Below, piece after piece: positions 7,190-62,180 of a stretch of DNA of 64,000 bases. Source of the DNA: Clostridia bacterium. GTDB lineage: Bacteria; Bacillota; Clostridia; Christensenellales; Aristaeellaceae. The position numbers and the translations under genes were made by a program. Location: contig JAFROK010000049.1 of assembly GCA_017429695.1 (NCBI GenBank), positions 80,587-144,586 of the forward strand. The letters run 5' to 3'. The notes below the pieces were generated by a model. That model ran no database searches. It was not told the origin of the DNA and saw only the letters and a program-made list of their open reading frames with translations. Position 1 is the stretch's first letter. Every line of letters begins with the position of its first letter.

Positions 7190-7198
7190 TGTTATACT
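7190..7198 (+). promoter_or_regulatory. Extended -10 promoter of the carboxylesterase gene
   Basis: TGT directly followed by TATACT (7193-7198) forms an extended -10 element; no good -35 box is present. The same CTGTGTTAT context, with the same 10-base spacing to a GGCAACT repeat start, is found before the acetyltransferase gene near 26545. Confidence 0.5.
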
Positions 7199-7237
7199 GA
7201 GAACCGGCAACTGACAACCGATAACAAACAACTGATT
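7196..7237 (+). repeat. Heptamer tandem array in the esterase leader
   Basis: Six 7-base units in strict phase: ACTGAGA, ACCGGCA, ACTGACA, ACCGATA, ACAAACA, ACTGATT. The array runs from the promoter almost to the GGGAGG ribosome binding site at 7241. It belongs to the same CTRAY heptamer family seen at several other gene borders in the window. Confidence 0.7.
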
Positions 7238-7255
7238 TCAGGGAGGAAAAACAAT

Positions 7256-8782
7256 ATGCTGCGCCAGGTCAAAACGGAAAACGGATGGATTCACGGAATT
7301 GAAGCCGCAGATCCGCGCATTACCGCTTTTAAAGGAATCCCCTTTGCCGCTCCGCCGGTGGATAAAAACCGCTGGCGCGCGCCGCAGCCCTGTGAAAACT
7401 GGGAGGGTGTCCGGGAAACGGTCCGCTTCGGACCAATCTCAATGCAGTGGGTTCCCGGGCTGGGCGATGATATCTACTGCCGGGAATGGCATGTTGATCC
7501 CGAAATTCCTATGAGCGAGGACTGCCTGTATCTGAACGTCTGGACCGGCGCCAAATCCGCGGATGAAAAGCGCCCAGTACTGGTCTGGTTCTTCGGCGGC
7601 GGACTACAGTGCGGCTATACGGCCGAGATGGAATTTGACGGGGAGCGCATCGCCCGCCGGGGAATTGTCGTGGTGACCGTCAATTACCGGGTCGGCGCGC
7701 TGGGTTTCCTGACACATCCGCAGATTACCGCCGAACAGCCGGAAGCACCGGCCAATTTCGGCAACCTGGACCAGCAGGCCGGCCTGCGCTGGGTGCAGCG
7801 CAACATCGCCGCCTTTGGCGGAGATCCGGCCAATGTCACCATTGCCGGGCAGTCTGCCGGCGGCGGCAGCGTGATGACCCAGCTGGCCTGCAAAGACAAC
7901 GCCGGGCTCTTCAGCAAAACGGTCGTGATGAGCGCCATGATTTTCGATCCCTATATGCGCCGTGAAATCGGCCGCCCCGAACTGCTGAAGGATGCGGAAA
8001 AGAAGGGCGAGGATTTCTTCGCGTTCCTGGGCGTAAAAACGCTGGAGGAAGCCCGGGCGATTGACGCCGTGACCCTCCAGCGCAGCTATGAACAATATAT
8101 GCAGTCCCACATTCCTTTCTTTACCGTTCAGGATGACCTGATCTGTACCGGGGATCCGATCGCACTGTATGTGAAAGGCGACTGCGTGGATGTGACCATG
8201 ATGGCCGGCAACACCGGTTCGGAATTTCCGAACAGCATTGACGCGGATTCCGAAGAGAAGCTGGCAGCCGATGCCCGGCGCCTCTTCGGTGACAAGGCCG
8301 ATGTGTTCCTTGCGATTCCGGAAGCAAAGCAAAAGACGGAAGGCCTGGGCTACGCGGTTGCCAGCGGCATCGAATGTTCTGTGAAGGGTGTCCTCACGCT
8401 GGCCGCTGAAACCGGCCGCAAAGGATACTGCTACTGCTTCGATCCGGATATTCCGGGCTGGGATCACCCCGGCACCTTCCATTCCTCTGACCTGTGGTTC
8501 TTCTTTGAGTCACTGGCCAAGTGCTGGCGTCCCTTTACCGGCCGGCATTATGACCTGGCCCGCCAGATGTGCGATTACTTCTGCAACTTTATCCGCACCG
8601 GCGATCCCAACGGGAAAGACCTGAACGGCGAACCCCTGCCGCTGTGGAACACCTGGTCCGCGGACGCTCCATGCACCATGCGCTTCCTGGGCGACGGCGC
8701 AAAAGCCTCCGCCGATCCGCTGCCGCCGCTCAAGCAGTTCCTGTCCGACCGGATCGTCGACCGCATCCGGACGCTCGGATAA
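7256..8782 (+). CDS. Type B carboxylesterase
   Basis: A 508-residue cytoplasmic alpha/beta hydrolase of the carboxylesterase type B (para-nitrobenzyl esterase) family. The oxyanion-hole loop WFFGGGLQ precedes the nucleophile elbow GQSAGGGS, where Gln replaces the more usual Glu before the catalytic serine; NLDQQAGLRWVQRNIAAFGGDP is a family hallmark. The acidic residue is probably the Glu of NTGSEFP, and the histidine that of GTFHSSDLWFFF. No signal peptide is visible, so an intracellular ester substrate is likely. The ATG at 7256 follows GGGAGG by 9 bases; earlier in-frame starts lack a site. It stands alone, transcribed toward serA. Confidence 0.9.
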   Translation: MLRQVKTENGWIHGIEAADPRITAFKGIPFAAPPVDKNRWRAPQPCENWEGVRETVRFGPISMQWVPGLGDDIYCREWHVDPEIPMSEDCLYLNVWTGAKSADEKRPVLVWFFGGGLQCGYTAEMEFDGERIARRGIVVVTVNYRVGALGFLTHPQITAEQPEAPANFGNLDQQAGLRWVQRNIAAFGGDPANVTIAGQSAGGGSVMTQLACKDNAGLFSKTVVMSAMIFDPYMRREIGRPELLKDAEKKGEDFFAFLGVKTLEEARAIDAVTLQRSYEQYMQSHIPFFTVQDDLICTGDPIALYVKGDCVDVTMMAGNTGSEFPNSIDADSEEKLAADARRLFGDKADVFLAIPEAKQKTEGLGYAVASGIECSVKGVLTLAAETGRKGYCYCFDPDIPGWDHPGTFHSSDLWFFFESLAKCWRPFTGRHYDLARQMCDYFCNFIRTGDPNGKDLNGEPLPLWNTWSADAPCTMRFLGDGAKASADPLPPLKQFLSDRIVDRIRTLG

Positions 8783-8816
8783 TCCGTGCGGCCGGATGTA
8801 GTCCGGATTATTTGTT
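8778..8816 (+). terminator. Terminator between esterase and serA
   Basis: An 8-bp stem (8778-8785 ATAATCCG with 8803-8810) encloses a second possible hairpin (8791-8795 with 8801-8805) and is followed by TTTGTTTT. It overlaps the esterase stop codon and the last codon of the convergent serA gene, so it may serve both strands. Confidence 0.55.
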
Positions 8817-9992
8817 TTCCACAATCCGGCGCACACGGATGACGCCGTCAATTTCCTTCAGCCGCTCCACGGTGTCGTGGGGCATCGGATGGCTGATATC
8901 CAGCAGCGTGTACGCAAAATCGCCCCGGCTCTTGTTTGCCAGGTTCTCAATGTTCAAGCCCTGGTTGCCGAAGAAAGTTGTAATCTGGCTCAGCATATTC
9001 GGGATGTTCCTGTGCAGGATGCCAACCCGGGCTTCCGTCTCGCAGATGCCGAGGTTGATCTCCGGATAGTTCACGGAATTATGGATATTGCCGTTGTCCA
9101 GGTAATCCTGCAGTTCCTTCACGGCCATGACAGCGCAGTTATCCTCCGCCTCTTCAGTGGAAGCACCGAGGTGCGGAATGATAATTGCGTTTTTCATGTG
9201 TGTGCTGGCAGGCGTGGGGAAATCGGATACGTAGCATTTTACGGCGCCGGTTTCCAGCGCGTCGGCCAGCGCTTTTTCGTCCACCAGGGTATCCCGGGCA
9301 AAGTTCAGCAGCACTGCGCCTTTTTTCATCTGGGCAATTGCTTCCGCGCTGATCATGCCCTTTGTGCTCGCCGTCGCGGGAACGTGAATGGTGATATAAT
9401 CGCTTACGGCGTAAATTTCATCAATCTTTTCCGCATGTTTCACCATTGGGGAAAGGTTCCAGGCGGAGCTGACGGACAGATAGGGATCAAAACCGTATAC
9501 ATTCATGCCGAGGGCTACCGCAGCGTTGGCAACCAGCACGCCGATGGCGCCCAAGCCGATGACGCCAAGCGTTTTGCCTGTCAGTTCGTTTCCGGCGAAA
9601 GCCTTTTTGGCTTTCTCCGTCGTTTTGGCAATATTCTCATCCGCCGCATTCTCGCGAACCCAGGCAATGCCGCCCGCCACGTCCCGCGCAGCCAGCAGCA
9701 TGCCGCAAAGCACCAGCTCTTTGACGGAGTTTGCATTGGCGCCGGGCGTGTTGAAAACAACGATGCCTTCCTCCGCACAGCGGTCCAGCGGGATATTGTT
9801 CACGCCGGCGCCGGCCCGGGCAATCGCCCGGAGTCCCGCAGGAAAGGCCATTTCCTTCATATCGGCAGAGCGGACCAGCACGCCGGCCGCTTCATCCATC
9901 GTATCAATCAGCGTATAGCCGGAACGGAATCCGTCCGTTCCAATTTTCGCGATATTGTTCAGGCAGTAAATTTTCCGTTCTTTCATACTCAT
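8808..9992 (-). CDS. serA: D-3-phosphoglycerate dehydrogenase
   Basis: A 394-residue NAD-dependent 2-hydroxyacid dehydrogenase of the short phosphoglycerate dehydrogenase type. It has a substrate-binding domain beginning with KIYCLNNIAKIG, a Rossmann domain with GLGAIG (about residue 152), the catalytic Arg in LNFARD, Glu and His in the later IIPHLGAST motif, and a C-terminal ACT domain (about 320-394) that usually senses serine. It makes 3-phosphohydroxypyruvate, the first step of serine synthesis. AAAGGA lies 5 bases upstream of the ATG. It begins 12 bases after the thioredoxin reductase stop, so the two are probably one transcript. No serB or serC is adjacent. Confidence 0.92.
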   Translation of the reverse strand: MSMKERKIYCLNNIAKIGTDGFRSGYTLIDTMDEAAGVLVRSADMKEMAFPAGLRAIARAGAGVNNIPLDRCAEEGIVVFNTPGANANSVKELVLCGMLLAARDVAGGIAWVRENAADENIAKTTEKAKKAFAGNELTGKTLGVIGLGAIGVLVANAAVALGMNVYGFDPYLSVSSAWNLSPMVKHAEKIDEIYAVSDYITIHVPATASTKGMISAEAIAQMKKGAVLLNFARDTLVDEKALADALETGAVKCYVSDFPTPASTHMKNAIIIPHLGASTEEAEDNCAVMAVKELQDYLDNGNIHNSVNYPEINLGICETEARVGILHRNIPNMLSQITTFFGNQGLNIENLANKSRGDFAYTLLDISHPMPHDTVERLKEIDGVIRVRRIVENK

Positions 9993-10004
9993 CCGTTTCC
10001 TTTC

Positions 10005-10922
10005 TCAGCCAAGTGAATCAATATACCGGCATGCTGCCAGCGCCGCCACTGCGCCGTCCGCGGCTGCCGTGGTCAGCTGCCGGATTGTTTTGCTCCGGCA
10101 GTCCCCTGCCACAAATACGCCAGGGGTCTTTGTATCGCATGTTTCGCCGCTGTCGAAATATCCCCACTTGTTCAGGTCGGCCAGTTTTTCAAAAGCGCCG
10201 TTTTCCGGAATCAGGCCGATGGCCACAAACAGTCCGTCACAGGCCACGTTTTCCGGTGCCCCGCCGTCCTGCGGTTCAACGGTCACGCTTCGGAGCGCAC
10301 CGCCTTCCGTGTTCAGCGCGGTAATCTTCACGCCGGTCCGCTTTTCGACGTTTGGCCGGGAAAACAGGATATCCTGCAGTTTCTTCTCCCCGGTAAACTC
10401 CGGCAGATCCTGCAGCATGATCACTTTTTCACACTTGCCCGCCAGCAGGATCGCCTCCTGCAGGGCGGAGTTTCCGCCGCCGGCCACGCAGACCGTCTGG
10501 CCGCTGTAGAAATCTCCGTCGCATACCGCACAGAAGCTGATTCCCTCGCCGACCAGTTCATTCTCACCGGGAAGCCCGAGCATCCGGTGCTTCACACCAG
10601 TCGCGATCACCACGGCTTTGGTGTCGTGCTGCCGGCCGTCATCGGTGTAAACCGTCTTCCGGTCTCCGTGATCCTCCACCTTCAGCGCTTCTGCCAGATC
10701 CACTTCCGCGCCTTGGGCCAGGATCTGCTCCACAAACGCATCGGCATACTCGTTGCCGCTCATCTGCGCGGTGCCCGGCCAGTTTTCCACCTTCGGACTG
10801 TAGGTAATCTGTCCGCCAAATCCGTGCTTTTCCAGCACCAGCACGCTCTTTCCGTTCCGCAGGGCATACAGCGCCGCAGTCATTCCAGCCGGGCCCCCGC
10901 CGATTACAATGATATCCGTCAT
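10005..10922 (-). CDS. trxB: Thioredoxin reductase-like flavoprotein
   Basis: A 305-residue FAD/NAD(P)H disulfide reductase. The N-terminal FAD motif is GGGPAGMTAALYA, the redox-active pair is CAVCDG (about residues 134-137), the NAD(P)H motif is GGGNSALQE, and the C-terminal FAD contact GVFVAGDCRSKTIRQL is conserved. Length and the CxxC placed in the nucleotide-binding domain match low-molecular-weight thioredoxin reductases. It lies directly downstream of nrdD, whose product carries a fused redoxin domain, so it is a plausible electron donor for ribonucleotide reduction as well as for general thiol balance. GGAGG precedes the ATG. Electron donor preference (NADPH, NADH or ferredoxin) cannot be told from sequence alone. 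Confidence 0.9.
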   Translation of the reverse strand: MTDIIVIGGGPAGMTAALYALRNGKSVLVLEKHGFGGQITYSPKVENWPGTAQMSGNEYADAFVEQILAQGAEVDLAEALKVEDHGDRKTVYTDDGRQHDTKAVVIATGVKHRMLGLPGENELVGEGISFCAVCDGDFYSGQTVCVAGGGNSALQEAILLAGKCEKVIMLQDLPEFTGEKKLQDILFSRPNVEKRTGVKITALNTEGGALRSVTVEPQDGGAPENVACDGLFVAIGLIPENGAFEKLADLNKWGYFDSGETCDTKTPGVFVAGDCRSKTIRQLTTAAADGAVAALAACRYIDSLG

Positions 10923-10953
10923 ACTTTCCTCCGTATAAAGGTGTCAGGGTTTT

Positions 10954-10987
10954 TAGGCGTCAGGTGTCAGATCTCAGGTGTCAGGAG
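10954..10987 (-). repeat. Heptamer tandem array upstream of trxB
   Basis: Five units in strict 7-base phase. Read on the minus strand they are CTGACAC, CTGAGAT, CTGACAC, CTGACGC and CTAAAAA. The array sits between nrdD and trxB on the 5' side of trxB, with CTR pointing toward trxB. Confidence 0.7.
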
Positions 10988-11046
10988 AACGATTCTATAG
11001 AATCAGATAAAATGTCATATTTCATGAAAATGAATTCGTGCCACTT

Positions 11047-11091
11047 GAAAAAGTATCAGGTATCAGGAGGACAAACTCCTGACACCTGATA
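11047..11091 (-). terminator. Terminator of nrdD built from heptamer repeats
   Basis: A 16-bp stem with one mismatch (11054-11069 with 11076-11091) and a 6-base loop is followed on the minus strand by CTTTTTC. Both arms consist of CTGAYAC heptamers, so the repeat family here forms a working-looking terminator 27 bases past the nrdD stop. Confidence 0.75.
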
Positions 11092-11113
11092 CCTGAGACC
11101 TGCTACCTAAAGA
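11054..11113 (+). repeat. Heptamer tandem array after nrdD
   Basis: On the plus strand, CTG or CTA triplets fall at 11079, 11086, 11093, 11100 and 11107, exactly 7 bases apart (CTGACAC, CTGATAC, CTGAGAC, CTGCTAC, CTAAAGA). Two inverted units lie at 11054-11069. The array ends 5 bases from the nrdD stop codon. Confidence 0.75.
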
Positions 11114-11118
11114 AACCA

Positions 11119-13542
11119 TCAGCCTGCCTGCCTCGCAGTCAGCATTCCCTTGATCTCGGAAACGCCGCGGAACTTCTCATAGTCCTCTCCGGCGCCCATC
11201 ACCACCAGCGTCGGCGCCTGCTTTACGCCGTACTTGTTGGTCAGCTCGATGTTCTCTGTCGCCAGCACTTTCTTGAACAGGAACCCGGCCTTTTCCAGCA
11301 TGCTGATGGCCAGCTTGCAGTTCGGGCAGGTCGCGCTGACAAAGAGCATCGCCCGGGCATTCTGGCACGCCGGCTTCTGGATTTCCGGCTCCGCAGGCGC
11401 TGCCTGTTCCGGCGCCTTCGGCGCTTCCTGTGCCGCGGGGGCAACCACCACAGGACCGCTGTGGGTCAGGTGGGAATGACCGATATCATAGACCTTCCGG
11501 TCTTTGAATTCCTGCGCCTTGCCGTCATTCCAGTTCTGCACGGGACGGTAGTAACCGGTGATCCGGCTGTACACTTCCGTCTTCTGTCCGCAATGAGGGC
11601 AGACGTACTGTTCGCCGGTCAGGTATCCGTGATCCTTGCAGACGGAATAGGTGGGGCTCATGGTGTAGTAGGGCAGCTTATAGTTCTCCGCAATCTTGCG
11701 AACCAGGTTCGCCGCAGCCTTCCAGTCCGGCAGCTTTTCGCCCAGGAACGCGTGGAATACGGTTCCGGAGGTATACAGCGTCTGCAGCTCATCCTGCACG
11801 TCCAGGGCGGAGAAGATATCCTCGCTGTAGCCGACGGGCAGGTGGCTGGAGTTGGTGTAGTAAGGCGTGCCGTTCATATTGGCAGTGATGATGTCCGGAT
11901 ACTGCTCCTTGTCGTGCTTGGCAAAGCGGTAGGAGGTGGATTCCGCCGGCGTTGCTTCCAGATTGTACAGGTCGCCGTACTGTTCCTGGTAGTCGCTCAG
12001 GCGTTCCCGCATGTGGTTCAGCACATCCTTGGCAAACTGCTGGGCTTCCGCGTTCGTCAGGTCCTTCCGCAGCCAGTTGGCGTTCTGCGCCGCTTCGTTC
12101 ATGCCCACCAGGCCGATGGTGCTGAAGTGGTTGTTGAAGGTGCCCAGGTACCGCTTGGTGTAGGGATACAGGCCGCCCTCCAGGAGCTTTGTGATGACCG
12201 TCCGCTTGGTCTTGAGGCTGCGGGCGGAGATGTCCATCAGGCGGTCCAGCTGGCGGTAGAAGTCCTTTTCGTCGGAAGATTCATAGGCCAGCCGGGGCAG
12301 GTTGATCGTCACAACGCCGATGCTGCCGGTGGATTCGCCGCTGCCGAAGAAGCCGCCGCTCTTTTTGCGCAGTTCCCGCAGGTCCAGCCGCAGGCGGCAG
12401 CACATGCTGCGCACGTCGTTCGGTTCCATATCGGAATTGATGTAGTTGCTGAAATAAGGCGTACCATACTTGGCGGTCATTTCGAACAGCAGCTTGTTGT
12501 TTTCGCTCTCGGACCAGTCAAAGTCCCGCGTAATGGAATAGGTCGGAATCGGATACTGGAATCCGCGGCCGTTGGCGTCGCCTTCGATCATGATTTCGAT
12601 GAAGGCCTTGTTGACCATATCCATTTCCTTCTGGCATTCGCCATAGGTGAAGTCCACTTCCTTGCCGCCGATGATAGCCGGCAGGTTTGCCAGGTCCTTC
12701 GGGCATACCCAGTCCAGCGTGATGTTGGAGAAGGGCGCCTGGGTGCCCCAGCGGCTGGGCGTATTCACGCCATAGATGAAGCTCTGGATGCACTGCTTGA
12801 CTTCTTTCTGGCTCAGGTTGTCGATCCGGACGAAAGGCGCCAGGTAGGTATCAAAGCTGGAGAACGCCTGGGCGCCGGCCCACTCGTTCTGCATGATGCC
12901 CAGGAAGTTGACCATCTGGTTGCACAGGGTGGACAGGTGGCTGGCCGGGGAACTGGTGATCTTTCCGGGAACGCCGCCCAGGCCTTCCTGAATCAGCTGT
13001 TTCAGGCTCCAGCCGGCGCAGTATCCGGTCAGCATGCTCAGGTCATGAATATGGATCGCGGCGCTGCGGTGCGCGTCTGCGATTTCGTTGTCATAGATTT
13101 CGCTCAGCCAGTAATTGGCCGTAATAGCGCCGGAATTGGACAGGATCAGTCCGCCCACCGAATAGGTCACGGTGGAGTTTTCCTTTACGCGCCAGTCGTT
13201 GATGCGCAGGTAGTTATCAACCAGGTCTTTATAGTTCAGCAGGGCGGAATTGACGTTGCGGACTTTCTCCCGTTGTTTGCGGTAGAGGATGTAGGCCTTG
13301 GCCACATCGGCATAGCCGGCCTCGGACAGCACCTTTTCAACGCAGTCCTGAATGCTTTCCACGGTGATTTTGTTGTCCCGGATCAGCGGCTCGTATTCCG
13401 CCGTTACCCGGAGGGCCAGCATGTCGATGACGCTGGGATGATACTGTTTGCCCAGCGCTTCAAATGCCTTTGTAATGGCTTTTGAAATTTTGCTGATTTC
13501 GAATTCTGTGACTTTGCCGTCACGTTTCACAACCTGATACAT
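11119..13542 (-). CDS. nrdD: Anaerobic ribonucleoside-triphosphate reductase with fused redoxin domain
   Basis: An 807-residue class III ribonucleotide reductase. An ATP-cone allosteric domain (residues 1 to about 95, VVKRDGKVTEFEISKIS) precedes the ten-stranded barrel. Near residue 640-665 are the zinc-site cysteines (CKDHG, CPHCG) and the glycyl-radical segment RITGYYRP (Gly about 663). After an Ala/Pro/Glu-rich linker the last 79 residues form a thioredoxin/glutaredoxin-like domain with ATCPNC (about 739-742) and the cis-proline KQAPTL. The fusion points to a redoxin-reduced rather than formate-using enzyme. The ATG at 13542 has GGGGAG 9 bases upstream; an earlier start at 13644 would run through the promoter. 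It is preceded by its own NrdR-type promoter. Confidence 0.95.
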   Translation of the reverse strand: MYQVVKRDGKVTEFEISKISKAITKAFEALGKQYHPSVIDMLALRVTAEYEPLIRDNKITVESIQDCVEKVLSEAGYADVAKAYILYRKQREKVRNVNSALLNYKDLVDNYLRINDWRVKENSTVTYSVGGLILSNSGAITANYWLSEIYDNEIADAHRSAAIHIHDLSMLTGYCAGWSLKQLIQEGLGGVPGKITSSPASHLSTLCNQMVNFLGIMQNEWAGAQAFSSFDTYLAPFVRIDNLSQKEVKQCIQSFIYGVNTPSRWGTQAPFSNITLDWVCPKDLANLPAIIGGKEVDFTYGECQKEMDMVNKAFIEIMIEGDANGRGFQYPIPTYSITRDFDWSESENNKLLFEMTAKYGTPYFSNYINSDMEPNDVRSMCCRLRLDLRELRKKSGGFFGSGESTGSIGVVTINLPRLAYESSDEKDFYRQLDRLMDISARSLKTKRTVITKLLEGGLYPYTKRYLGTFNNHFSTIGLVGMNEAAQNANWLRKDLTNAEAQQFAKDVLNHMRERLSDYQEQYGDLYNLEATPAESTSYRFAKHDKEQYPDIITANMNGTPYYTNSSHLPVGYSEDIFSALDVQDELQTLYTSGTVFHAFLGEKLPDWKAAANLVRKIAENYKLPYYTMSPTYSVCKDHGYLTGEQYVCPHCGQKTEVYSRITGYYRPVQNWNDGKAQEFKDRKVYDIGHSHLTHSGPVVVAPAAQEAPKAPEQAAPAEPEIQKPACQNARAMLFVSATCPNCKLAISMLEKAGFLFKKVLATENIELTNKYGVKQAPTLVVMGAGEDYEKFRGVSEIKGMLTARQAG

Positions 13543-13621
13543 ATTCGTCCGCTCCCCTGCCTGTTTTTTATGCTTTTTTGTCATGTCGGAGCAAGCGGTC
13601 TGCTTGTCCGCGTGCCTGCAT

Positions 13622-13651
13622 AATATATCACGCTGGGATTGCAAAAGTCAA
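13622..13651 (-). promoter_or_regulatory. Promoter of nrdD
   Basis: TTGACT (13651-13646), an 18-base spacer and TATATT (13627-13622) on the minus strand. The -35 box overlaps the proximal NrdR box, as expected for repression. Transcription would start about 70 bases before the nrdD ATG. Confidence 0.65.
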
Positions 13652-13661
13652 TATGTTGTAT
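13646..13661. promoter_or_regulatory. NrdR box, proximal
   Basis: The core CAACATATTG (minus strand) fits CWAnATnTWG, the invariant part of the known NrdR consensus. It overlaps the -35 box of the nrdD promoter and pairs with a second box 33 bp away, about three helical turns. Confidence 0.65.
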
Positions 13662-13678
13662 CAGAAAAAACTTTTTTT

Positions 13679-13694
13679 GTACTACATCTTGTGC
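13679..13694. promoter_or_regulatory. NrdR box, distal
   Basis: The core CAAGATGTAG (minus strand; plus CTACATCTTG) fits the NrdR consensus at all invariant positions. It abuts the stop codon of nrdG. Tandem boxes about three turns apart are the typical NrdR arrangement. Confidence 0.65.
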
Positions 13695-14389
13695 TAATCG
13701 GCCATTCCACGTAATTCCACCGAAGGCACATATTCCCGGGCAATTTCCGCGTATGCGCGCATTTCATTATCCGCCGGCGCATGGAATCCCCCGAAGGGAA
13801 CCGTATCCCGGTCGGTGAATTTCTGCAGGTAGTATCGCTTTGCGCCCCGAATCCATTCGCCGATGCCGCGGAAAGAATCTGCATCATGCAATTCCGCCAC
13901 CACCGTGGTCCGGAATTCATAATCCGTCCTGCCTTCCATCAGCAGGGAAACACTCTTCCGGATTTTTCCCATATCCAGCGTATCCACGCCGGCGGTCACT
14001 GCATACCGGTCCGGGCTGTTCTTGATATCCATGGCCACATAGGCCGCCAGACCCCGGTCAATGATTTCCCGCAGCCGGTCCGGATGCGTTCCGTTGGTAT
14101 CCAGCTTCATCGGGTACCCCAGGTCCCGGATTTTTTCCGCCAGGGAAATGATATCCGGCCGCAGCAGCGGTTCACCGCCGGTAATCGCAACGCCTTCGAG
14201 CAGTCCCTGCCGTTTCTTCAGGAAAGCCAGCAGTTCTTCTTCCTCCATCACGGGCGGCGCCGATCCGTCAATCAGTTCCGCGTTGTGGCAGAAAGGGCAC
14301 CGCATATCGCATCCGCCCAGGAAAACCGTGCATGCCACCCGTCCCGGAAAATCGAGCAGGGTCATTTTCTGCAACCCGTGAATTTTCAT
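13694..14389 (-). CDS. nrdG: Anaerobic ribonucleotide reductase activating protein
   Basis: A 231-residue radical SAM activase. The cluster motif is CDMRCPFCHN (CxxxCxxC, about residues 27-34), followed by the SAM-binding GGE motif in ITGGEPLLRPD and the LDTNGTHP segment. It uses a [4Fe-4S] cluster and S-adenosylmethionine to create the glycyl radical on NrdD. It precedes nrdD, the reverse of the common nrdD-nrdG order, and nrdD has its own promoter in the gap. A GAGGAG site lies 9 bases before the ATG. The length is longer than E. coli NrdG (about 155 residues) and matches the larger PflA-like NrdG2 form. Confidence 0.93.
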   Translation of the reverse strand: MKIHGLQKMTLLDFPGRVACTVFLGGCDMRCPFCHNAELIDGSAPPVMEEEELLAFLKKRQGLLEGVAITGGEPLLRPDIISLAEKIRDLGYPMKLDTNGTHPDRLREIIDRGLAAYVAMDIKNSPDRYAVTAGVDTLDMGKIRKSVSLLMEGRTDYEFRTTVVAELHDADSFRGIGEWIRGAKRYYLQKFTDRDTVPFGGFHAPADNEMRAYAEIAREYVPSVELRGMAD

Positions 14390-14410
14390 CCGTCCGTTCT
14401 CCTCTCGTTC

Positions 14411-14438
14411 AAAAGCCCGGCGGATCGCACCGCCGGGC
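14411..14438 (-). terminator. Terminator after the repeat-protein gene
   Basis: A 9-bp GC-rich stem (14415-14423 with 14430-14438, arm GCCCGGCGG), a 6-base loop and a TTTT tract on the minus strand, 19 bases past the stop of the LEA-like gene and just upstream of nrdG. Confidence 0.65.
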
Positions 14439-14456
14439 CGGTTACCGTAAATCTTT

Positions 14457-15758: not shown

Positions 15759-15802
15759 TTTATTCTGCCTCCCGGTCCAGTATGGTTGTGGAGTTTTTTC
15801 TT

Positions 15803-17898: not shown

Positions 17899-17920
17899 TT
17901 CCTTGTAAAACCAAATCAGG

Positions 17921-23144: not shown

Positions 23145-23186
23145 CTAACCACTATCTTCTAATTCCTGACTCCTCATTTCTCACTT
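23145..23186 (+). repeat. Heptamer tandem array at the 3' end of ddh
   Basis: Six units in exact 7-base phase: CTAACCA, CTATCTT, CTAATTC, CTGACTC, CTCATTT, CTCACTT. The array runs from just after a terminator to the first base of the ddh stop codon, with CTR pointing toward ddh. Confidence 0.75.
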
Positions 23187-26555: not shown

Positions 26556-26597
26556 CTGGCAACTAATCACTGACCGCTAACCACTATCCACTGAACA
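26556..26597 (+). repeat. Heptamer tandem array in the acetyltransferase leader
   Basis: Six units in exact 7-base phase: CTGGCAA, CTAATCA, CTGACCG, CTAACCA, CTATCCA, CTGAACA. The array fills the leader between the extended -10 promoter and the GGAGGTG ribosome binding site. Confidence 0.75.
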
Positions 26598-54814: not shown

Positions 54815-54936
54815 GCCTGCTTCCTCCTCCGTCCGCACAAGGAAAAAACGTATTGATCCTTGCTTTCTGTGTATCCATATGATAGCATAGCTTCAGATTT
54901 TCGCCAACACCCTTGGAAAAAAGTGAGGCCTTTCCG

Positions 54937-55668
54937 ATGATCCAGACAGAGAATACCGCCATCGTCCTCCGCTTCGTCAATTACCGGGACAACGACCGGA
55001 TGGTCACCCTGCTCAGCCCGTCCCGGGGGCGGATTGACGCCATGATCCGCGGCTGCCGGAAGCCGAATTCCCATAACCTGAACGCCGGGGAGCTTTTTGC
55101 CCTGGGCGATTATATGCTGCATGAAGCCGACGGCCGGGCATCCGTCACCTCTGTGAAACTGATTGAGACTTTTTATCCCCTGCGGAGTGATTATACCCGC
55201 CTCACCTGCGGCGTTTACCTCCTGAACCTGGCGGAAGCCGCCGCGGAGCCGGAACAGGAGCAGCGGGAGCTGTTTATGCTGCTGGTGCATACCCTGTCCC
55301 GCCTGACCTTCTCCGATCAGCCGTGGAAGCCCCTGCTGGCCGGTTTCCTGCTGCACTTCTCCGCCTGCCAGGGATTCCGTCCCCGCCTGAACCACTGCGT
55401 CCACTGCGGAAAAGCCATTCCGGAGGAAGGGCCCTTCTGGTTTGACGCGGCGGAAGGCGGCGTCTGCTGCCGCGACTGCAGAAAAGAAAAGAGCCAGATT
55501 CCTCTGGCTCCCGAACAGGTCCGCTGGATGCGCGAAGCCCTGAAATCCGGCTCTGCTTCCTGGGTGGATTCCCCGTCTGCCTACGCCCCGTTCCCGCTCC
55601 TCCGCGATTATGTGGAGCAGCGGATGGGGCGCCGCATCAAAAGCGCCGCCATGCTCCCCGCAGACTGA
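54937..55668 (+). CDS. recO: DNA repair protein RecO
   Basis: A 243-residue RecO. The N-terminal OB domain starts TENTAIVLRFVNYRDNDRMVTLLS, typical of the family, followed by the helical domain and the zinc cysteines CVHCGK and CCRDC (about residues 155-190). RecO anneals single strands and helps load RecA during gap repair. ATG 54937 has GTGAGG 8 bases upstream. It stands between the divergent sigma gene and the convergent htpG, near recA, which fits a repair neighbourhood. Confidence 0.94.
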   Translation: MIQTENTAIVLRFVNYRDNDRMVTLLSPSRGRIDAMIRGCRKPNSHNLNAGELFALGDYMLHEADGRASVTSVKLIETFYPLRSDYTRLTCGVYLLNLAEAAAEPEQEQRELFMLLVHTLSRLTFSDQPWKPLLAGFLLHFSACQGFRPRLNHCVHCGKAIPEEGPFWFDAAEGGVCCRDCRKEKSQIPLAPEQVRWMREALKSGSASWVDSPSAYAPFPLLRDYVEQRMGRRIKSAAMLPAD

Positions 55669-55690
55669 TACTAACCACTAATCGAATCGC

Positions 55691-57589
55691 TCATTTTACA
55701 ATCTTACTCAGAATCTTCCGGCTTCTCTCGAGGAAAGCCGTAATCTCCTCTGCTTCCAGTGGCTGCGCAGCCATCCGCGCCAGGTCATACACCTGGCAGC
55801 AGATCATCTTTGTCTCCTCATCCTCCGGATCCCGAGCGGCCAGCGCCTGCACGGTTTCATTCCGGCGGTTCAGCACCAGCGTGAAGCTGTCCGGCATCGG
55901 GAAGCTCTGGCCGTAGATCCGGCTCATTTCCTTGTACCGCCGCATCTGTTCGTCTTCCGTCACCATGGCGGTCATCTCCGGATCGCCCAGCGATTCCAGT
56001 TTGACTTCCAGTTCCTCCTTGCCCAGCGCACCGCGGAACAGGGCCTGCATCTTCTCCGCGTCCAGCTCCTTGCCTTCCTCAGATTCCTCTTTCAGGCCGT
56101 CAATATCCGCGTCCACCCGGGCAAAGGTCACCCGGTCTTCTTCCTTGCCCTGGTATTCCATGAAGGACATAAAGTTTCCGTCGATCAGGGTGTTCATCAC
56201 CGCAACTTCAATGCCGCGGTCTGTATACAACTTCACGGAAGCCGCCTGGCGTTTTTCATCGTTGGTATAGTAAACCTTCTTGTCCGTCTTGTCGAAGTTG
56301 GCCGCCTTGTATTCCTCAATCGTTTCATACTTGCCGTCCGTCTTCTTCATCAGGATAGCGCCTTTCACCATGTCGTAGAACTTGTTGTCCTTGATGGCGC
56401 CGTATTTCACGAAGGGGGCAATATCATCCCAATAGCCTTCATAGGTCTCCCGTTCCGTGTTCATCAGGCCGTTCAGCTTGTCCGCCACCTTCTTGGTGAT
56501 ATGCGCACTGATCTTTTTCACATACCCATCGTTCTGCAGGAAGGAACGGCTGACGTTCAGCGGCAGGTCGGGACAGTCGATCACGCCCTTGAGCAGCATC
56601 AGGAATTCCGGAATCACCTCTTTGATATTGTCCGCCACAAACACCTGGCCCGCAAACAGTTTGATCTGGCCCTCATGGGTGCCGAAATCATTCTTCAGTT
56701 TCGGAAAATACAGGATGCCTTTCAGGTTGAACGGATAGTCCACGTTCAGGTGAATCCAGAACAGCGGCTCCTCAAAGTCCATAAAGACTTTGCGGTAGAA
56801 CGCCTTGTATTCCTCATCGGTGCAGTCCGCCGGCTTCTTCAGCCACAGCGGCGCCGTGTCGTTGATCTGCTGGGGCTTGGGCAGCTCCATCACCTTTTCA
56901 GTCTTCGGCGTGCCGTCTTCGTTCTTTTCATCCCCGACCGGAACATCCTTCTCCACCGGTTTGGCGTTCGCATCTTCCAGCATCACCGGATAGGACATAT
57001 AGCCGCAGTAGCGGTTCAGCACTTCCCGCACCCGCCAGGTATCCAGGAATTCCTTTTCTTCCTCGGAGATGTGCAGAATCACGTCCGTCCCATGGACCGT
57101 CCGGCTGCCTTCCGAGATCTCATAGCCCATGCCGTCCTCGCTGACCCAGTGAACCGGCTCCGCGCCTTCCTCGCTGCTCAGGCTCTCAATCTCCACCTTT
57201 TCGCTGACCATGAACACGGAATAGAAGCCCAGGCCGAAATGGCCGATAATGTCCGCCTTCTCTTCCGGCTTGTCCTCAAACTGCTTCATGAATTCCGTCG
57301 CGCCGGAAAATGCTACCTGGTTGATGTATTTGCGCACCTCATCCGCCGTCATGCCGATACCGGTATCGGAAATGCGGATCGTTTTCTTTTCCTTGTCTAC
57401 GGAGACTATCACGGACATTTCCTCTTCGCTGTCCGGATGCAGCATCTTATACTTGGTGATTGCGTCGCAGGCATTGGAAACTTCTTCCCGCAGGAAAATA
57501 TCCTTATCCGAATACAGCCAGCGTTTGATCACCGGCATAATATTCTGCGCATCAATCGATACGGAACCGTTCTCTTTCTGAATTGCCAT
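55691..57589 (-). CDS. htpG: Chaperone HtpG (Hsp90)
   Basis: A 632-residue bacterial Hsp90. The N-terminal ATPase shows REEVSNACDAITKYK, DTGIGM and GHFGLGFYSVFMVS; the middle domain has the catalytic-loop region PLNVSRSFLQND. It is a dimeric ATP-driven chaperone. The start MAIQKENG at 57589 is preferred, since GGGGAGGAG lies 9 bases upstream, over ATG codons at 57595 and 57616. A promoter and a perfect CIRCE element lie upstream, so HrcA is expected to control it; in Bacillus subtilis htpG is not in the HrcA regulon. Confidence 0.97.
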   Translation of the reverse strand: MAIQKENGSVSIDAQNIMPVIKRWLYSDKDIFLREEVSNACDAITKYKMLHPDSEEEMSVIVSVDKEKKTIRISDTGIGMTADEVRKYINQVAFSGATEFMKQFEDKPEEKADIIGHFGLGFYSVFMVSEKVEIESLSSEEGAEPVHWVSEDGMGYEISEGSRTVHGTDVILHISEEEKEFLDTWRVREVLNRYCGYMSYPVMLEDANAKPVEKDVPVGDEKNEDGTPKTEKVMELPKPQQINDTAPLWLKKPADCTDEEYKAFYRKVFMDFEEPLFWIHLNVDYPFNLKGILYFPKLKNDFGTHEGQIKLFAGQVFVADNIKEVIPEFLMLLKGVIDCPDLPLNVSRSFLQNDGYVKKISAHITKKVADKLNGLMNTERETYEGYWDDIAPFVKYGAIKDNKFYDMVKGAILMKKTDGKYETIEEYKAANFDKTDKKVYYTNDEKRQAASVKLYTDRGIEVAVMNTLIDGNFMSFMEYQGKEEDRVTFARVDADIDGLKEESEEGKELDAEKMQALFRGALGKEELEVKLESLGDPEMTAMVTEDEQMRRYKEMSRIYGQSFPMPDSFTLVLNRRNETVQALAARDPEDEETKMICCQVYDLARMAAQPLEAEEITAFLERSRKILSKIVK

Positions 57590-57640
57590 AACCATTCTCC
57601 TCCCCGGAAAAAACATCTTTGATCATTTCTGACCAAACAT

Positions 57641-57669
57641 ATTTTACCACCCTCCTCCCCCAAAATCAA
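57641..57669 (-). promoter_or_regulatory. Promoter of htpG
   Basis: TTGATT (57669-57664), a 17-base spacer and TAAAAT (57646-57641) on the minus strand, 51 bases before the htpG ATG and 7 bases downstream of the CIRCE element. Confidence 0.6.
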
Positions 57670-57676
57670 CACAAAA

Positions 57677-57703
57677 TTAGCACTCGTCACTTCCGAGTGC
57701 TAA
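57677..57703. promoter_or_regulatory. CIRCE element (HrcA operator)
   Basis: TTAGCACTC-N9-GAGTGCTAA matches the CIRCE consensus at every position, including the 9-base spacer. It lies upstream of the htpG promoter. Confidence 0.95.
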
Positions 57704-57715
57704 TCCTGATGATTC

Positions 57716-57757
57716 CTTTCTCCTGCCACCTGAAACCTGAAACCTGATACCTGCTCA
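57716..57757 (+). repeat. Heptamer tandem array at the 3' end of recA
   Basis: Units in exact 7-base phase with CTG at 57723, 57730, 57737, 57744 and 57751 (CTGCCAC, CTGAAAC, CTGAAAC, CTGATAC, CTGCTCA), plus a weaker unit at 57716. The last unit contains the recA stop codon. CTR points toward recA. Confidence 0.75.
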
Positions 57758-58882
57758 GATATCCTCATCCAGCAGCGCCAGGTCGTCCTCTTCCTCCGCG
57801 GCCTGCGCGTTCACAGCATTCTGCTCTTCCGGCGTCAGGTCCTTTGGGGCAAAAAGTTCCGCCCGGATTTTTTTGTCGATCTCCGCGGTCAGTTCCGGAT
57901 GATCCTTCAGGTACTGGCGGGCATTATCCCGGCCCTGGGCCAGGCGTTGATCCTGATAGGAGAAGAACGCGCCGCTCTTGTGGATAATATCCCGTTCCAC
58001 CGCCAGGTCCAGCAGCGTTCCCTCGGTGCTGATGCCCTCGCCGTAGATGATATCGAATTCTGCCACCCGGAAGGGCGGAGCCACTTTATTCTTGACTACC
58101 TTGACCTTGGTGCGGTTGCCGATCACTTCGCTGCCGTTTTTCAGCTGTTCGCCCTTGCGGACATCCAGCCGCACGGAGGAATAGAACTTCAGCGCACGGC
58201 CGCCGGGCGTTGTTTCCGGATTGCCGTACATCACGCCGACCTTCTCGCGCAGCTGGTTGATAAACACGGCAACACACCCGGTTTTGTTGATCACGCCGGT
58301 TAGTTTGCGCAGTGCCTGGCTCATCAGCCGGGCCTGCAGGCCGACAAAGGAATCGCCCATTTCGCCGTCGATTTCCGCCTTCGGCACCAGCGCAGCCACC
58401 GAGTCGATCACCACCACGTCCAGCGCGCCGCTGCGCACCAGCGCTTCGGTAATTTCCAGCGCCTGCTCGCCGGTATCCGGCTGGGATACGTACAGATCGT
58501 CAATATTCACGCCGAGCTTTTTGGCATACAGGGGATCCAGCGCATGCTCCGCGTCGACAAACGCTGCGATGCCGCCGGCTTTCTGCGCCTCCGCCACAAT
58601 ATGCAGCGCCACCGTTGTTTTACCGGAGGATTCCGGCCCGTATATTTCAACAATACGTCCCCGGGGAATTCCGCCTACGCCAAGCGCATAATCCAGCGTC
58701 AGGCACCCGGTGGGGATCACAGGGATATCGCGGTTCACCGCGTCTGCGCCCATTTTCATTACAGCGCCTTTGCCGAACTGTTTGTCCAGGTCGGCCAGGG
58801 CATGTTCCAATGCTTTCAGTTTTTCAGCCTGCACATCGCTGACCGGTTCTTTTTCCTGTTTTGCGGGTTTCTTCGTCGCCAT
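57755..58882 (-). CDS. recA: Recombinase RecA
   Basis: A 375-residue RecA. Walker A is GPESSGKT (about 80-87), the L1/L2 region includes [19 protein letters not shown] and [29 protein letters not shown], and the C-terminus is the usual acidic tail [13 protein letters not shown]. It forms filaments on single-stranded DNA and drives recombination and SOS. ATG 58882 has AAAGGA 8 bases upstream. I find no GAAC-N4-GTTC LexA site in the 106-base gap to the methyltransferase gene. Its 3' end abuts a heptamer array. Confidence 0.98.
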
Positions 58883-58941
58883 ATCATTCATCCTTTCAAT
58901 CCACAAATCTCATCGCCCGCAGGCAACCGTTCCGTACGGAT

Positions 58942-58970
58942 ATTCTACCGCCGGTCCCCCGAAAACACAA
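58942..58970 (-). promoter_or_regulatory. Promoter of recA
   Basis: TTGTGT (58970-58965), a 17-base spacer and TAGAAT (58947-58942) on the minus strand, in the gap after the methyltransferase gene. Confidence 0.55.
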
Positions 58971-58988
58971 GGGGAACAAAAACATTTT

Positions 58989-60209
58989 CTATGCTTCCCC
59001 GGTCCGCTGCCAGGCCCGGCGGATACCGGCTGCATCCGTCGTCATGATGGCTTTTACTGCCTGCGGATCCATCTTCAGGGAGCGCACCAGTTCCGGATAC
59101 CGGAAGGAACGCCGGAAGCTCTGCTCCACCCGGAAAACGCCGTCCTCAATCCGTCCGATTTCCCAGGATTCCAGGTTGTCCGCCGGATTCGCCTTTGCCG
59201 GAAACGCAGGATGTTCCATCTCCAGCCCGCCCATTTCAAAGCGTCCTTCTTCCTCCCCGGTCAGCAGTTCCGCCTTTCCTTTTCCCGTCGGGCAGATCAC
59301 CGTCAGGTTTTCCGGCTTCAGCCGGTTCGCGGTCACCGCCACCGCTTCGGGATTTACATCCATTCCCGCAAACCGGCATCCCAGCTGGCCGGCCGCTTCC
59401 ATCGTTGTTCCGCTTCCGCAGCACAGGTCCGCCACCAGGTCACCCGGATTGGTTACCGGCAGCAGCAGCCGTTCCAGCAGCTTCAGCGGTTTCTGGGTCG
59501 CGTATCCTGTCCGTTCCGGATCCCGCTGCTGCAGGTAGCCGATGTCTGTCCATACGTCGCTGGGATAAACCGGTTCGTCGTCATAATACCGGTATTCCTT
59601 TCCGTTGGAGGTAATCCGGGAGAACATCCGGCCCTGTTCGTCCACGCCGCGGGCCATATGGTTCCGGCGTTTATCCCCACGCAGCAGCGGCACCCGGGTC
59701 AGGTCAAAAAAGTATTTCTGGCTTTTCGCGTAAAGCAGGATCACGTCGTGCTTCCGGGAAAAATAACGCCGGGAGCGTCCGCCGCTTTCATAGGTCCAGA
59801 TGATTTCATTCAGGAAACGGGTCTTTCCGAACACCTTGTCGCACATAATCCGGGCCGGTGCCGCCATCCGCCAGTCCAGGTGCAGGTAAAACACGCCGGT
59901 TTCCTGCAGCAGGTCCCGGGACGCGCCGACCAGCCGGCGTAAAAGGCGCAGGTATTCCTTTTCGCTGGTATAGCGGTCCTCGTAGGCCGGATACCGGGGA
60001 GCCGGCGTGCCGGTCTTCCATCCCGCTTCCCCGTAGGGCCGCCGGCGCATGAATTTTTCCCCCGTCATAAACGGCGGATCCAGGTATACGCACTGTGCCT
60101 TTCCGGCCAGGTTCCGGAATTCCGGCGGCAGCGCCATCACATTGCCGCGCATCAGCAGGTTTTCCCCGTTTCCGAATACTTCCCGTTCGATATTCACCTG
60201 TTCAAACAT
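58989..60209 (-). CDS. Orphan DNA methyltransferase (N6-adenine or N4-cytosine, beta class)
   Basis: A 406-residue methyltransferase. The catalytic motif IV DPPF (44-47) comes before the S-adenosylmethionine-binding region ADLCCGSGTT near residue 270, the order of the beta group, and the linker YATQKPLKLLERLLLPVTNPGD is highly typical of that group. A C-terminal extension of about 90 residues may help recognise DNA. No restriction enzyme or specificity gene is nearby, so it is probably a solitary enzyme used for regulation or repair marking. The ATG has GGGAGG upstream and overlaps the Cys-rich gene by 8 bases. Confidence 0.88.
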   Translation of the reverse strand: MFEQVNIEREVFGNGENLLMRGNVMALPPEFRNLAGKAQCVYLDPPFMTGEKFMRRRPYGEAGWKTGTPAPRYPAYEDRYTSEKEYLRLLRRLVGASRDLLQETGVFYLHLDWRMAAPARIMCDKVFGKTRFLNEIIWTYESGGRSRRYFSRKHDVILLYAKSQKYFFDLTRVPLLRGDKRRNHMARGVDEQGRMFSRITSNGKEYRYYDDEPVYPSDVWTDIGYLQQRDPERTGYATQKPLKLLERLLLPVTNPGDLVADLCCGSGTTMEAAGQLGCRFAGMDVNPEAVAVTANRLKPENLTVICPTGKGKAELLTGEEEGRFEMGGLEMEHPAFPAKANPADNLESWEIGRIEDGVFRVEQSFRRSFRYPELVRSLKMDPQAVKAIMTTDAAGIRRAWQRTGEA

Positions 60210-60702
60210 GGCTGCCTCCCAGTTTTTCCCTCAGCTGCCTGAGCTCGTCCTGCTGTGCTGTCAGCATTTCCACCATCCGGCGCTGCGCTTCATCGGCCAT
60301 CAGGATCTCCCCGGCCTCCCGCACCGCGTCAGCAAAAGCCGGATCCATCGCCCGGATCCCCTGCCGTGCCAGCGGGCATACCGCCCGGGCCCGCAGGTCC
60401 ACCACTGCCCGGATGCAATCCTTCCGGATCACCGGCAGCAGCGGAAATATCCGGCAGGCCAGTGGCCGCTCATCCCGGTCGCACGTGCCGGGACAGATGA
60501 CAATTTTTCCGCCTGCCGTGTCGAGTATTTTCCAGTTTTCCTTTTCCCGGTACAGTTTTTCCTCTCCCGGAAAAAGCAGCATGCCGGTCTCCTCGCCTTC
60601 GCAGGACCGGCAGCAGCGCGAACCGCACACCCGCCCGCAGTCGCGTTTCAGCGGGGTGATATCTTTCAGTTTTTCCCGGGCGGAAAAAAGAGCATCGTCC
60701 AT
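60202..60702 (-). CDS. Cys-rich protein, YkgJ-like
   Basis: A 166-residue protein with eight or more cysteines arranged as CGRVCGSRCCRSC, then CPGTC and CRIF...CPLA, and the conserved FPGEE and LACRIFPLLP blocks, resembling the YkgJ family of putative zinc- or iron-chelating proteins. The C-terminal half is helical. ATG 60702 is supported by GGAGG 9 bases upstream; an ATG at 60777 would run into the MATE gene. It overlaps the methyltransferase gene by 8 bases, so they may act together, but the function of the family is unknown. Confidence 0.7.
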   Translation of the reverse strand: MDDALFSAREKLKDITPLKRDCGRVCGSRCCRSCEGEETGMLLFPGEEKLYREKENWKILDTAGGKIVICPGTCDRDERPLACRIFPLLPVIRKDCIRAVVDLRARAVCPLARQGIRAMDPAFADAVREAGEILMADEAQRRMVEMLTAQQDELRQLREKLGGSHV

Positions 60703-60773
60703 ATGCGGCGTCCTCCGTAAAGGTCCGTCCTGTCTATCCGATGCTCCCATCATAAAGGGGTTTATTTGATTTG

Positions 60774-62180
60774 TCAATCATTCTGGCGCCTGGCGCCTGA
60801 AACCTGCTTCAGCTTCTTTTTGGCGATCAGCTGATAGCACATCATATGCGCAGCAAATGTCATCCCCCATGAAATCGGGTAGGACATATACAGCACATGC
60901 TGGGCGGCATCCGGCTCGGTCTGGGCCGCGAATATCGTCAGGATCCAGATAATCCGGTATACGCAGACGCCGACCAAAGAAACGATCATCGGCATAATGG
61001 AATAGCCGATGCCCCGCAACTGACCGACCATCACGTCCATCAGTCCGCACAGGAAATAGGTGGGCAGGATCACGCTCATCCGCACCAGTCCGGCCGCGAT
61101 TACATCCGGATCGGAATTGTACAGGCCCATCAGCTGCGAACCGAAAAGGAGAATCAGCAGGCCCATGCTCAGGCCGATTACCGTCACCGTTCCCAGGCAG
61201 TACCACATGGTCTTTTTCACCCGGTCGTATTTTCCGGCGCCGTAGTTCTGGCTGGCAAAGGTCATATCCGCCTGGTGCTGGGCGTTCATCGCCACATAGA
61301 CAAAGCCTTCAATGTTGCAGGCCACGCCGTTCCCAGCCATGACAACAGATCCCAGGGAATTGATGGAAGACTGTATCATCACATTGGAAATGGAAAACAG
61401 GCTCCCCTGCAGACCGGCCGGCAGGCCGATCCGGATCATCTGCCTCGCACTCTTCCAGTCCACCCGGCATTCGCTGAGCACCAGCTGCGTCACGCCGCGG
61501 GTCCGGAACAGGCACATCAGCACCAGCGCCGCGCTGATCACCTGGCTCGCCACGGTGGCGATGGCAACACCCTCCACATCCAGGTGGAACGCAATCACCA
61601 GCAGCAGGTTCAGCAGCACATTCACCAGCCCGGAAATCATCAGGTAGATCATGGGCCGTCGGGTATCGCCCACTGCCCGGAGGGTTGCCGCGCCGAAATT
61701 GTAAAGCATGTTCGCCGGCATCCCCAGAAAGTAGATTTTCACATAGATCGTGGCTTTGTCAATCACATCCGCCGGAGATCCCATCATCTCCAGCAGCGGC
61801 CGGGCCATCAGGAAACCGAATATTCCGACGCCGATTCCCATAAACAGCGCCAGCGTCATGCCGGTATGCTCCGCTTTTCTCATACCGACCACATCCCGGG
61901 CACCGTAGCAGCGGGCAATCACCACGCTGGCCCCGACACTCAGGCCCATAAACAGGTTCACCAGCAGGTTGATCAGCGACCCGGTGGAAGATACCGCCGC
62001 CAGCGGTTCATGGCCGTCGGCAAACCGGCCGACGACAATCACGTCCGCCGCGTTATACAGCAGCTGCAGGATACCGGTCAGGATCAGGGGAACAGAAAAC
62101 GCAATAATCTTCGGAAGGAGCGGTCCTTCCGTCATATCGATCTCATATCTTTTTCCGCGTTTCTGCAAACTCCTGAGCAT
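60774..62180 (-). CDS. MATE-family efflux transporter
   Basis: A 468-residue, 12-span Na+- or H+-driven multidrug exporter of the MATE family (DinF/NorM-like branch). Typical segments are PLILTGILQLLYNAADVIVVGRFADG at the N-terminus and VSSTGSLINLLVNLFMGLSVGASVVIAR. AGGAGG precedes the ATG, 19 bases after the metallophosphoesterase stop, so both are in one transcript. Its last codons (KQVSGARRQND) are encoded by a heptamer-repeat array, meaning the repeat has become coding here. Confidence 0.93.
   Translation of the reverse strand: MLRSLQKRGKRYEIDMTEGPLLPKIIAFSVPLILTGILQLLYNAADVIVVGRFADGHEPLAAVSSTGSLINLLVNLFMGLSVGASVVIARCYGARDVVGMRKAEHTGMTLALFMGIGVGIFGFLMARPLLEMMGSPADVIDKATIYVKIYFLGMPANMLYNFGAATLRAVGDTRRPMIYLMISGLVNVLLNLLLVIAFHLDVEGVAIATVASQVISAALVLMCLFRTRGVTQLVLSECRVDWKSARQMIRIGLPAGLQGSLFSISNVMIQSSINSLGSVVMAGNGVACNIEGFVYVAMNAQHQADMTFASQNYGAGKYDRVKKTMWYCLGTVTVIGLSMGLLILLFGSQLMGLYNSDPDVIAAGLVRMSVILPTYFLCGLMDVMVGQLRGIGYSIMPMIVSLVGVCVYRIIWILTIFAAQTEPDAAQHVLYMSYPISWGMTFAAHMMCYQLIAKKKLKQVSGARRQND
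60783..60810 (+). repeat. Heptamer array inside the 3' end of the MATE gene
   Basis: Four units in exact 7-base phase: CTGGCGC, CTGGCGC, CTGAAAC, CTGCTTC (CTG at 60783, 60790, 60797, 60804). They lie within the last codons of the MATE gene and CTR points into the gene. Confidence 0.65.

Follow-up and report, generated by a model that had tools for sequence, protein, structure and literature searches.

Seven-base tandem arrays that tend to face the adjoining gene in a Clostridia genome

What places short, degenerate tandem repeats at gene borders with one particular strand directed at the gene? The question is raised by a 64,000-nucleotide stretch of a Clostridia bacterium (GenBank assembly GCA_017429695.1, contig JAFROK010000049.1, positions 80,587 to 144,586; 'the window' below), in which arrays of a 7-base unit beginning with CTR stand beside different genes. 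The observation of phased, polar heptamer arrays is confirmed here, both in the window and across the draft genome (G000; 3.03 Mb, 60 contigs, 88% complete).

An array was defined as a gapless run of at least four CTR triplets in 7-base phase, with its 'head' at the 3′ end of the CTR strand. The window holds six such runs, compared with a mean of 0.02 (maximum 1) in 50 first-order Markov resamplings, and the reversed window sequence holds none. In the whole genome the pattern (CTRN4)x4 occurs 214 times (82 forward, 132 reverse) and its reversed form 17 times (9 + 8), while CTRAN3 x4 occurs 102 times (41 + 61) and its reversed form not at all. The anatomy of the arrays was studied in 1,268,800 bases of G000 (42% of the genome), 32% of which had been chosen since the pattern search had listed arrays there; this sample contains 82 border arrays and none deep in a gene (reversed control, 8). 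An 864-kb subset, picked without regard to array position, yet from contigs holding some arrays, includes 19. When this subset was scanned for periods 4 to 15, period 7 gave 10 intergenic segments and one coding segment, period 14 seven intergenic segments and each remaining period at most three, periods 6 and 12 being frequent in coding sequence only (13 and 26). Neither did resampled sequence yield as many arrays nor is orientation across the genome random, and the dispersed family, strict phase and gene-ward polarity proposed in the initial annotation are upheld by the window runs and the genome-wide counts.

Polarity was assessed against borders from a simple gene caller built for this analysis, so that start positions carry error; two array callers, one accepting gapless runs (82 arrays) and one allowing a missing unit (83), led to the same conclusions. 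Among 65 arrays between tandem genes, 47 face the upstream stop and 18 the downstream start, and convergent gene pairs enclose a further 10 arrays and divergent pairs 8 (first-caller set). The spacer test counts only arrays with at least 30 spare spacer bases and compares those facing with those not facing the nearest codon. In the G000 sample this gave 29:1 on the stop side and 8:5 on the start side (Fisher 7e-5). The corresponding ratios were 9:1 and 2:4 in the 864-kb subset (not significant) and 5:0 and 2:0 in the congener G012 (790 kb; 11 border arrays, one deep in a gene). In IMG/VR contig sets, selected solely for holding an array and with exact repeats removed, they were 5:3 and 10:2 for CTAAYCA (28 arrays placed, 34 loci; 23:6 and 23:6 with the run finder, prior to repeat removal), 17:0 and 9:6 among the matches listed for CTGAYAA (47 arrays, at least 120 loci), 8:1 and 5:2 for CTRACTT (23 arrays, 42 loci), and 5:6 and 6:0 for the non-CTR word AATTCAT (26 arrays, 29 loci). 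Pooling the five CTR sets, with CTGAYAA represented by the matches listed, gave 64:5 at stops (p=4e-14) and 34:15 at starts (p=0.009), p values that are too small because there is evident relatedness among some of the contigs (five arrays share a head distance of 262). Between convergent genes the head is nearer to a gene in seven arrays and the tail in two, with one tie; eight of the ten heads lie at most 13 bases from a stop, and one such array touches stops at both ends. Convergent pairs elsewhere gave 3:0 (CTGAYAA, among the matches listed) and 0:2 (CTAAYCA). Divergent pairs follow no rule (head nearer in three, tail in five). Polarity toward genes is thus real but not absolute: the 'always' of the initial annotation claims too much, as facing is nearly complete on the stop side, less so on the start side, and without a rule between divergent genes.

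The arrays of the window, with associated units, are as follows; all except 7197-7238, 11053-11067 and 55665-55684 are gapless runs.
7197-7238, plus strand: degenerate CTGANAA-type array of six units, three with CTR and the others with CCG or CAA, recognised by eye and under the run threshold; faces the carboxylesterase start (called at 7256).
10950-10984, minus strand: CTGANAC-type array of five units, a gapless run; faces the start of a thioredoxin-reductase-like gene (10005-10922), its head 27 bases upstream.
11053-11067, minus strand: two extra units on the opposite strand to, and forming an inverted repeat with, 11079-11113.
11079-11113, plus strand: CTGANAC-type array of five units; faces the nrdD stop (11119) and lies tail to tail with the array at 10950-10984.
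23145-23172, plus strand: array of four CTR units followed by two CTC steps; faces the diaminopimelate dehydrogenase stop (23186).
26556-26597, plus strand: mostly CTAAYCA-like array of six units, a gapless run; its head is 15 bases ahead of the GNAT acetyltransferase start (26613), directly before ATGGAGG.
55665-55684, plus strand: weak array, CTGATA plus two phased units, the first step being 6 bases and not 7; its first TGA is the stop of gene 54937-55668, and it faces the htpG stop (55691).
57723-57757, plus strand: CTGANAC-type array of five units; overlaps and faces the recA stop codon (57755-57757).
60783-60810, plus strand: array of four units (CTGGCGC twice, CTGAAAC, CTGCTTC) within the end of the MATE gene (60774-62180), in its reading frame and coding for residues near the protein end.

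Once borders are corrected, gene-ward polarity fits all seven arrays that were first annotated, six of which were confirmed in a second gene listing. The initial coordinates were mostly right, with small errors: the triplets at 23173 and 23180 are CTC and not CTR, position 57716, given as the start of the recA array, reads CTTTCTC, the first array does have six units although CTR is present in only three, and the additional candidate at 55665-55684 keeps phase over two units only.

Heads lie close to the codon they face. For stop-facing arrays, 42 of 47 heads are within 30 bases of the stop (15 tails are within 30 bases of the next start) and most overlap the stop codon; for start-facing arrays, 17 of 18 heads are within 30 bases of the start (11 tails within 30 bases of a stop) and end directly ahead of the ribosome site, some reading CTRA into (A)GGAGG. 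TAG ends 62 of 908 called genes, compared with 31 of 46 genes touched by a stop-facing head. By eye, the protein end residue is unchanged relative to G012 in seven array-touched genes (nrdD, recA, L084:2574, L091:7044, L091:3952, L101:4056 and L110:7428), while the proteins of minD and L109:3768 are shortened, with the stop supplied by the array. The nearest approach to a pair of empty and filled sites is the minD-rodA border, where 11 of 24 congeners, including the three nearest, read CTGAAGGAGG and G000 has an array between CTGAA and GGGAGG (by eye). The stretch around it (L110; G000 C58:43000-57000, including the mre/minD/rodA region) carries six border arrays, none of which is present at those borders in G012. 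A composite spacer of 300 bases (G000 C1:36007-36315) contains four arrays in one direction and includes 8-base interruptions such as CTCGTCCC.

Three unit families are present, CTAAYCA, CTGANAC and CTGANAA, in which all letters save position 5 are at least 80% fixed. Position 5 is C54 T39 in the first family, C31 T21 A14 G11 in the second and T28 C24 A17 in the third, a variability that is partly circular since families were defined with this position free. Among 266 untyped inner units, position 4 is A in 240, position 6 is A or C in 254 and position 7 is A or C in 246, and position 5 is again the most variable (C123 T97 A32 G14). Adjoining CTAAYCA units are alike at position 5 in 20 of 67 cases, compared with an expected 47% (p=0.005), and neighbours in CTGANAC and CTGANAA show the same, non-significant, lean to unlike letters. 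The head unit of CTGANAC arrays begins with CTA in 14 of 27 cases (four of these 14 face starts) versus 7 of 118 other units. CTGATAA accounts for 29 of 449 units, and no consensus word has more than GG on either strand.

Comparison with relatives, all drafts and with several border judgements made by eye, revealed that words change between congeners. CTRAN3 x4 arrays occur in 7 of 25 genomes of the genus, as CTGAATT in G002, G007 and G022 and as CTAAYAA in G012; two G007 pieces (L353, L354) appear stop-facing as well (by eye). Across the class, 39 of 291 genomes match, spread across families and with words including CTAACYT, CTAAYGT and CTGAGYT, although the reversed control matches in some genomes; in G136 it does so 75 times forward and 88 times in reverse, probably reflecting another abundant heptamer word. 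Some borders bear arrays whose words differ from one congener to another. Of 22 congeners readable at the recA end, two have an array, G000 (coding strand GTNTCAG) and G012 (TTRTTAG); the nrdD border has one in 5 of 28, namely G000, G012, G011 (TGGWTAG) and G001 and G022 (GWRGTAG), all past the stop and in the same orientation, with G007 doubtful. The L091:3952 border has CTR arrays in 2 of 28 genomes and other heptamer-like runs in six more (by eye). At the border after the orthologue of L091:2405-3958 (L281-L308), the runs read by eye were ATGCACA (G007), ATGCAGA (G002), ACTGAAR (G001), ACTTAAR (G022), ATTCATA (G016) and ATTCTGA (G015). When 16 array borders of G000 were read in G012, four carried clear arrays and one a weak array, compared with 0.3 expected from 11 arrays on 597 borders (p=1.8e-4). 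In an htpG tree G000 groups with G014, G334 and G019, and G012 with G011; the nearest relatives lack arrays at recA and, where readable, nrdD. Given their absence from closer relatives, the arrays must either have been inserted independently at favoured borders or be old, with later losses and changes of word.

These arrays are dispersed, lineage-specific heptamers of a type that other phyla are known to have; a literature search found no report of such arrays in Clostridia. The available text of Rehm 2015 (PMC4692102) describes GGGAATC and GGGGAYT heptamers in two Xanthomonas species, most of them between the same open reading frames in both, and a related repeat in Nostoc; four units are most frequent and the degenerate positions are GGGANTN. 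There the G-rich strand is antisense in the 50 bases upstream of open reading frames and sense up to 50 bases from stops, which directs the C-rich strand at the gene. The CTR arrays follow the same placement rule, being dispersed 7-base tandem units, mostly intergenic, near or overlapping starts and stops, at times in inverted pairs and with the same strand inward from both sides, though weakly at G000 starts and not between divergent genes. They differ in their words, in having three word families in one genome and differing words at one border in congeners, and in consensus words without G-tracts of three or more, which precludes an ordinary G-quadruplex. What is added is therefore a Clostridial multi-word variant, its independence from G-tracts and the finding that the word at a given border can differ between congeners. 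Polar placement, as published for G-quadruplex heptamers, does not require a G-quadruplex. The accessible part of MacGregor 2015 (PMC4679880), which names no Clostridia, reports mostly intergenic TAACTGA repeats in Beggiatoaceae, cyanobacteria and Bacteroidetes, forward toward start codons and often directly upstream of them, with some reversed near stops. Of 170 sets, 147 face starts; TAACTGA is the prevailing word, and 36 sets contain a related one. TAACTGA is identical to CTGATAA, a word of one of the three families here, but stop-facing arrays dominate in G000 (47 of the 65 between tandem genes against 18 start-facing, all families together) and position 5 varies freely. The initial annotation had known such heptamers from filamentous cyanobacteria but not this family in Clostridia; as far as the available texts of these two papers go, neither the family (PMC4679880) nor its polarity (PMC4692102) is new outside that group. 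GTGATTA of Helicobacter pylori and three Calothrix heptanucleotides are also cited in the available text of PMC4692102. The former is CTAATCA on the other strand. The latter are presumably the repeats named STRR. Scattered reports from Xanthomonas, Nostoc, Beggiatoaceae and now Clostridia lead to one testable question, namely what makes heptamer arrays and why they face genes.

The occurrence of the same words at unrelated loci points to copying in trans and not to purely local duplication. We tentatively favour a reading in which arrays are copied onto border sequences resembling the unit core and grow outward from the gene. A DNA 3′ end at such a border, the core being a stop codon or CTRA adjoining AGGAGG, would serve as starting point and would be extended by template switching, copying an existing array elsewhere and adding units outward. 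Arrays would persist as the stretches from stop to terminator and from promoter to ribosome site tolerate them, and the word in use would turn over as one family spreads. Anchored outward copying would cover the adjacency of heads to borders, the special head unit (CTA) and the reuse of borders. A far broader version, to which we give little credence, would see the G-quadruplex, TAACTGA and CTR arrays all as products of an unrecognised DNA-writing process common to many bacteria, which would need neither reverse transcriptase nor Ku, would extend gene borders outward with 7-base repeats specific to each lineage, and would swap words genome-wide on a short evolutionary time.

Several observations weigh against outward copying from borders. 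Facing is weak on the start side of the G000 sample (8:5, a single cluster, C1:36172-36315, accounting for three of the exceptions) and stands at 2:4 on the start side of the 864-kb subset. Arrays carry their own TAG, so the enrichment of this codon may be cause or effect, and TGA or TAA is present in 24 of the 26 relatives that lack a CTR array at the L091:3952 border. In CTGAYAA contigs, among the matches listed, the head is at most 36 bases from the stop in only 12 of 23 stop-facing arrays. On the stop side AATTCAT has no polarity, contrary to what outward growth would predict if it were universal, and the position of CTAAYCA nearer the head in 7 of 9 mixed arrays is not significant (p=0.18). 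Template-switch copying is itself inferred.

The main, if doubtful, alternative is orientation-blind insertion followed by selection on the transcript, which would remove arrays giving G-rich RNA, or RNA with AGG, GTG or ATG, before starts and those giving C-rich (Rho-site-like) untranslated RNA after stops. This would suit the C-rich inward strand of most words here and of the Xanthomonas GGGANTN, the bias of AATTCAT, which has ATG on the other strand, before starts (6:0) but not after stops (5:6), and the avoidance of gene interiors (none of 82 arrays deep in a gene in G000, 1 of 12 in G012). However, CTGATAA has no G-C imbalance, yet CTGAYAA contigs gave 17:0 on the stop side among the matches listed; convergent pairs have no downstream gene to suffer and still have the head nearer in seven and the tail in two; and many heads sit at the border despite a long spacer.

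That the heptamers are regulatory sites near starts and ends, read by an RNA- or DNA-binding protein or through a G-quadruplex effect, was among the ideas put forward in the available text of MacGregor 2015 (PMC4679880) and Rehm 2015 (PMC4692102). It agrees with the position of arrays next to starts and stops and with six of seven unit positions being mostly one or two letters, but we consider it unlikely here, given that RNA from 5′ and 3′ borders would carry opposite strands, that the nearest relatives have no arrays at recA and, where readable, nrdD, that one border has different words between congeners and that three consecutive G are found in none of the words. Mrazek's proposal for heptanucleotides (as cited in the available text of PMC4679880 and PMC4692102), local polymerase slippage on single seeds, would be consistent with period 7 giving the most intergenic segments in the scan (10, with 7 for period 14); slippage alone would explain neither why unrelated loci share words nor why variation is concentrated at a single position, and is very unlikely.

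Still less probable is a role of arrays as junctions of inserted DNA, in which a mobile or filler segment would be joined to the chromosome via outward-pointing arrays. The tail-to-tail pairs at trxB-nrdD and C20:73425/73462, and the arrays that point away from a second repeat, GTCATTCTGAGCGAAGCGAAGAATCTC, at L073, L089, L101, L098 and L099, would fit, but only 5 of 83 arrays have a GTCATTCTGAGCGAAGCGAAGAATCTC copy at a distance of 120 bases or less, and other shared flanks consist of array units and a few short matches, in an analysis that did not cover transposases. A larger mobile element around the arrays was rejected, since 150-base flanks compared all against all share array units, one second repeat and few short matches.

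A telomerase- or DRT10-like reverse transcriptase writing repeats from an RNA template can be all but set aside: a template would account for the turnover of words and for a single degenerate position, and in the available text on DRT10 (PMC12632851) tandem-repeat DNA of system-specific motif and length is made (a 9-base motif in the system shown, reverse-transcriptase-dependent, second strand barely detected), but RVT_1 (PF00078), above cut-off in 9 of 31 genus genomes, is missing in five of seven array-bearing ones, including two nearly complete genomes, G022 (one contig, 97% complete) and G002 (two contigs, 98%), and the match in G000 is a piece at a contig edge. Among the origins first proposed, reverse transcription is thus disfavoured, and a replication- or insertion-linked one may still hold. 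End joining with Ku was likewise rejected, Ku being found in none of the 31 genus genomes in a search that did not cover LigD; RVT_1 and Ku are not needed for arrays. Stop-codon insulation as a common function was dismissed, as CTR strands have stops in every frame whereas the Xanthomonas word GATTCCC has none, and six of nine other strands tested have none either. A presumed likeness of CTGANAA to anticodon loops was dropped, as CTAAYCA, CTGAATT and CTAACTT do not fit.

The second dispersed repeat, GTCATTCTGAGCGAAGCGAAGAATCTC, is found at L073:3114-3127, L089:3900-3913, L101:4092-4105, L098:14525-14538, L099:7758-7771 and other places, and the arrays beside it point away from it. Its core has 22 matches with up to two mismatches in the G000 sample, seven of them in called genes (reversed core, 5), and it is exact in 41 stretches of IMG/VR contigs, at times near inverted copies; a literature search on it returned only unrelated papers.

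In the window, the gene names given in the initial annotation agree with the Pfam matches of the array neighbours (carboxylesterase, trxB-like pyridine-nucleotide oxidoreductase, NrdD, diaminopimelate dehydrogenase, GNAT acetyltransferase, RecA and MatE), to which Hsp90 is added. The recA array is flanked on one side by the recA stop and on the other by an inverted repeat upstream of htpG (57677-57703, TTAGCACTC-N9-GAGTGCTAA), which we take to be a CIRCE-like element. At the Rfam gathering score the arrays in the window match no curated family, and the only two matches are to rRNA; 5S and the end of 23S rRNA genes occupy 63415-64000 on the minus strand.

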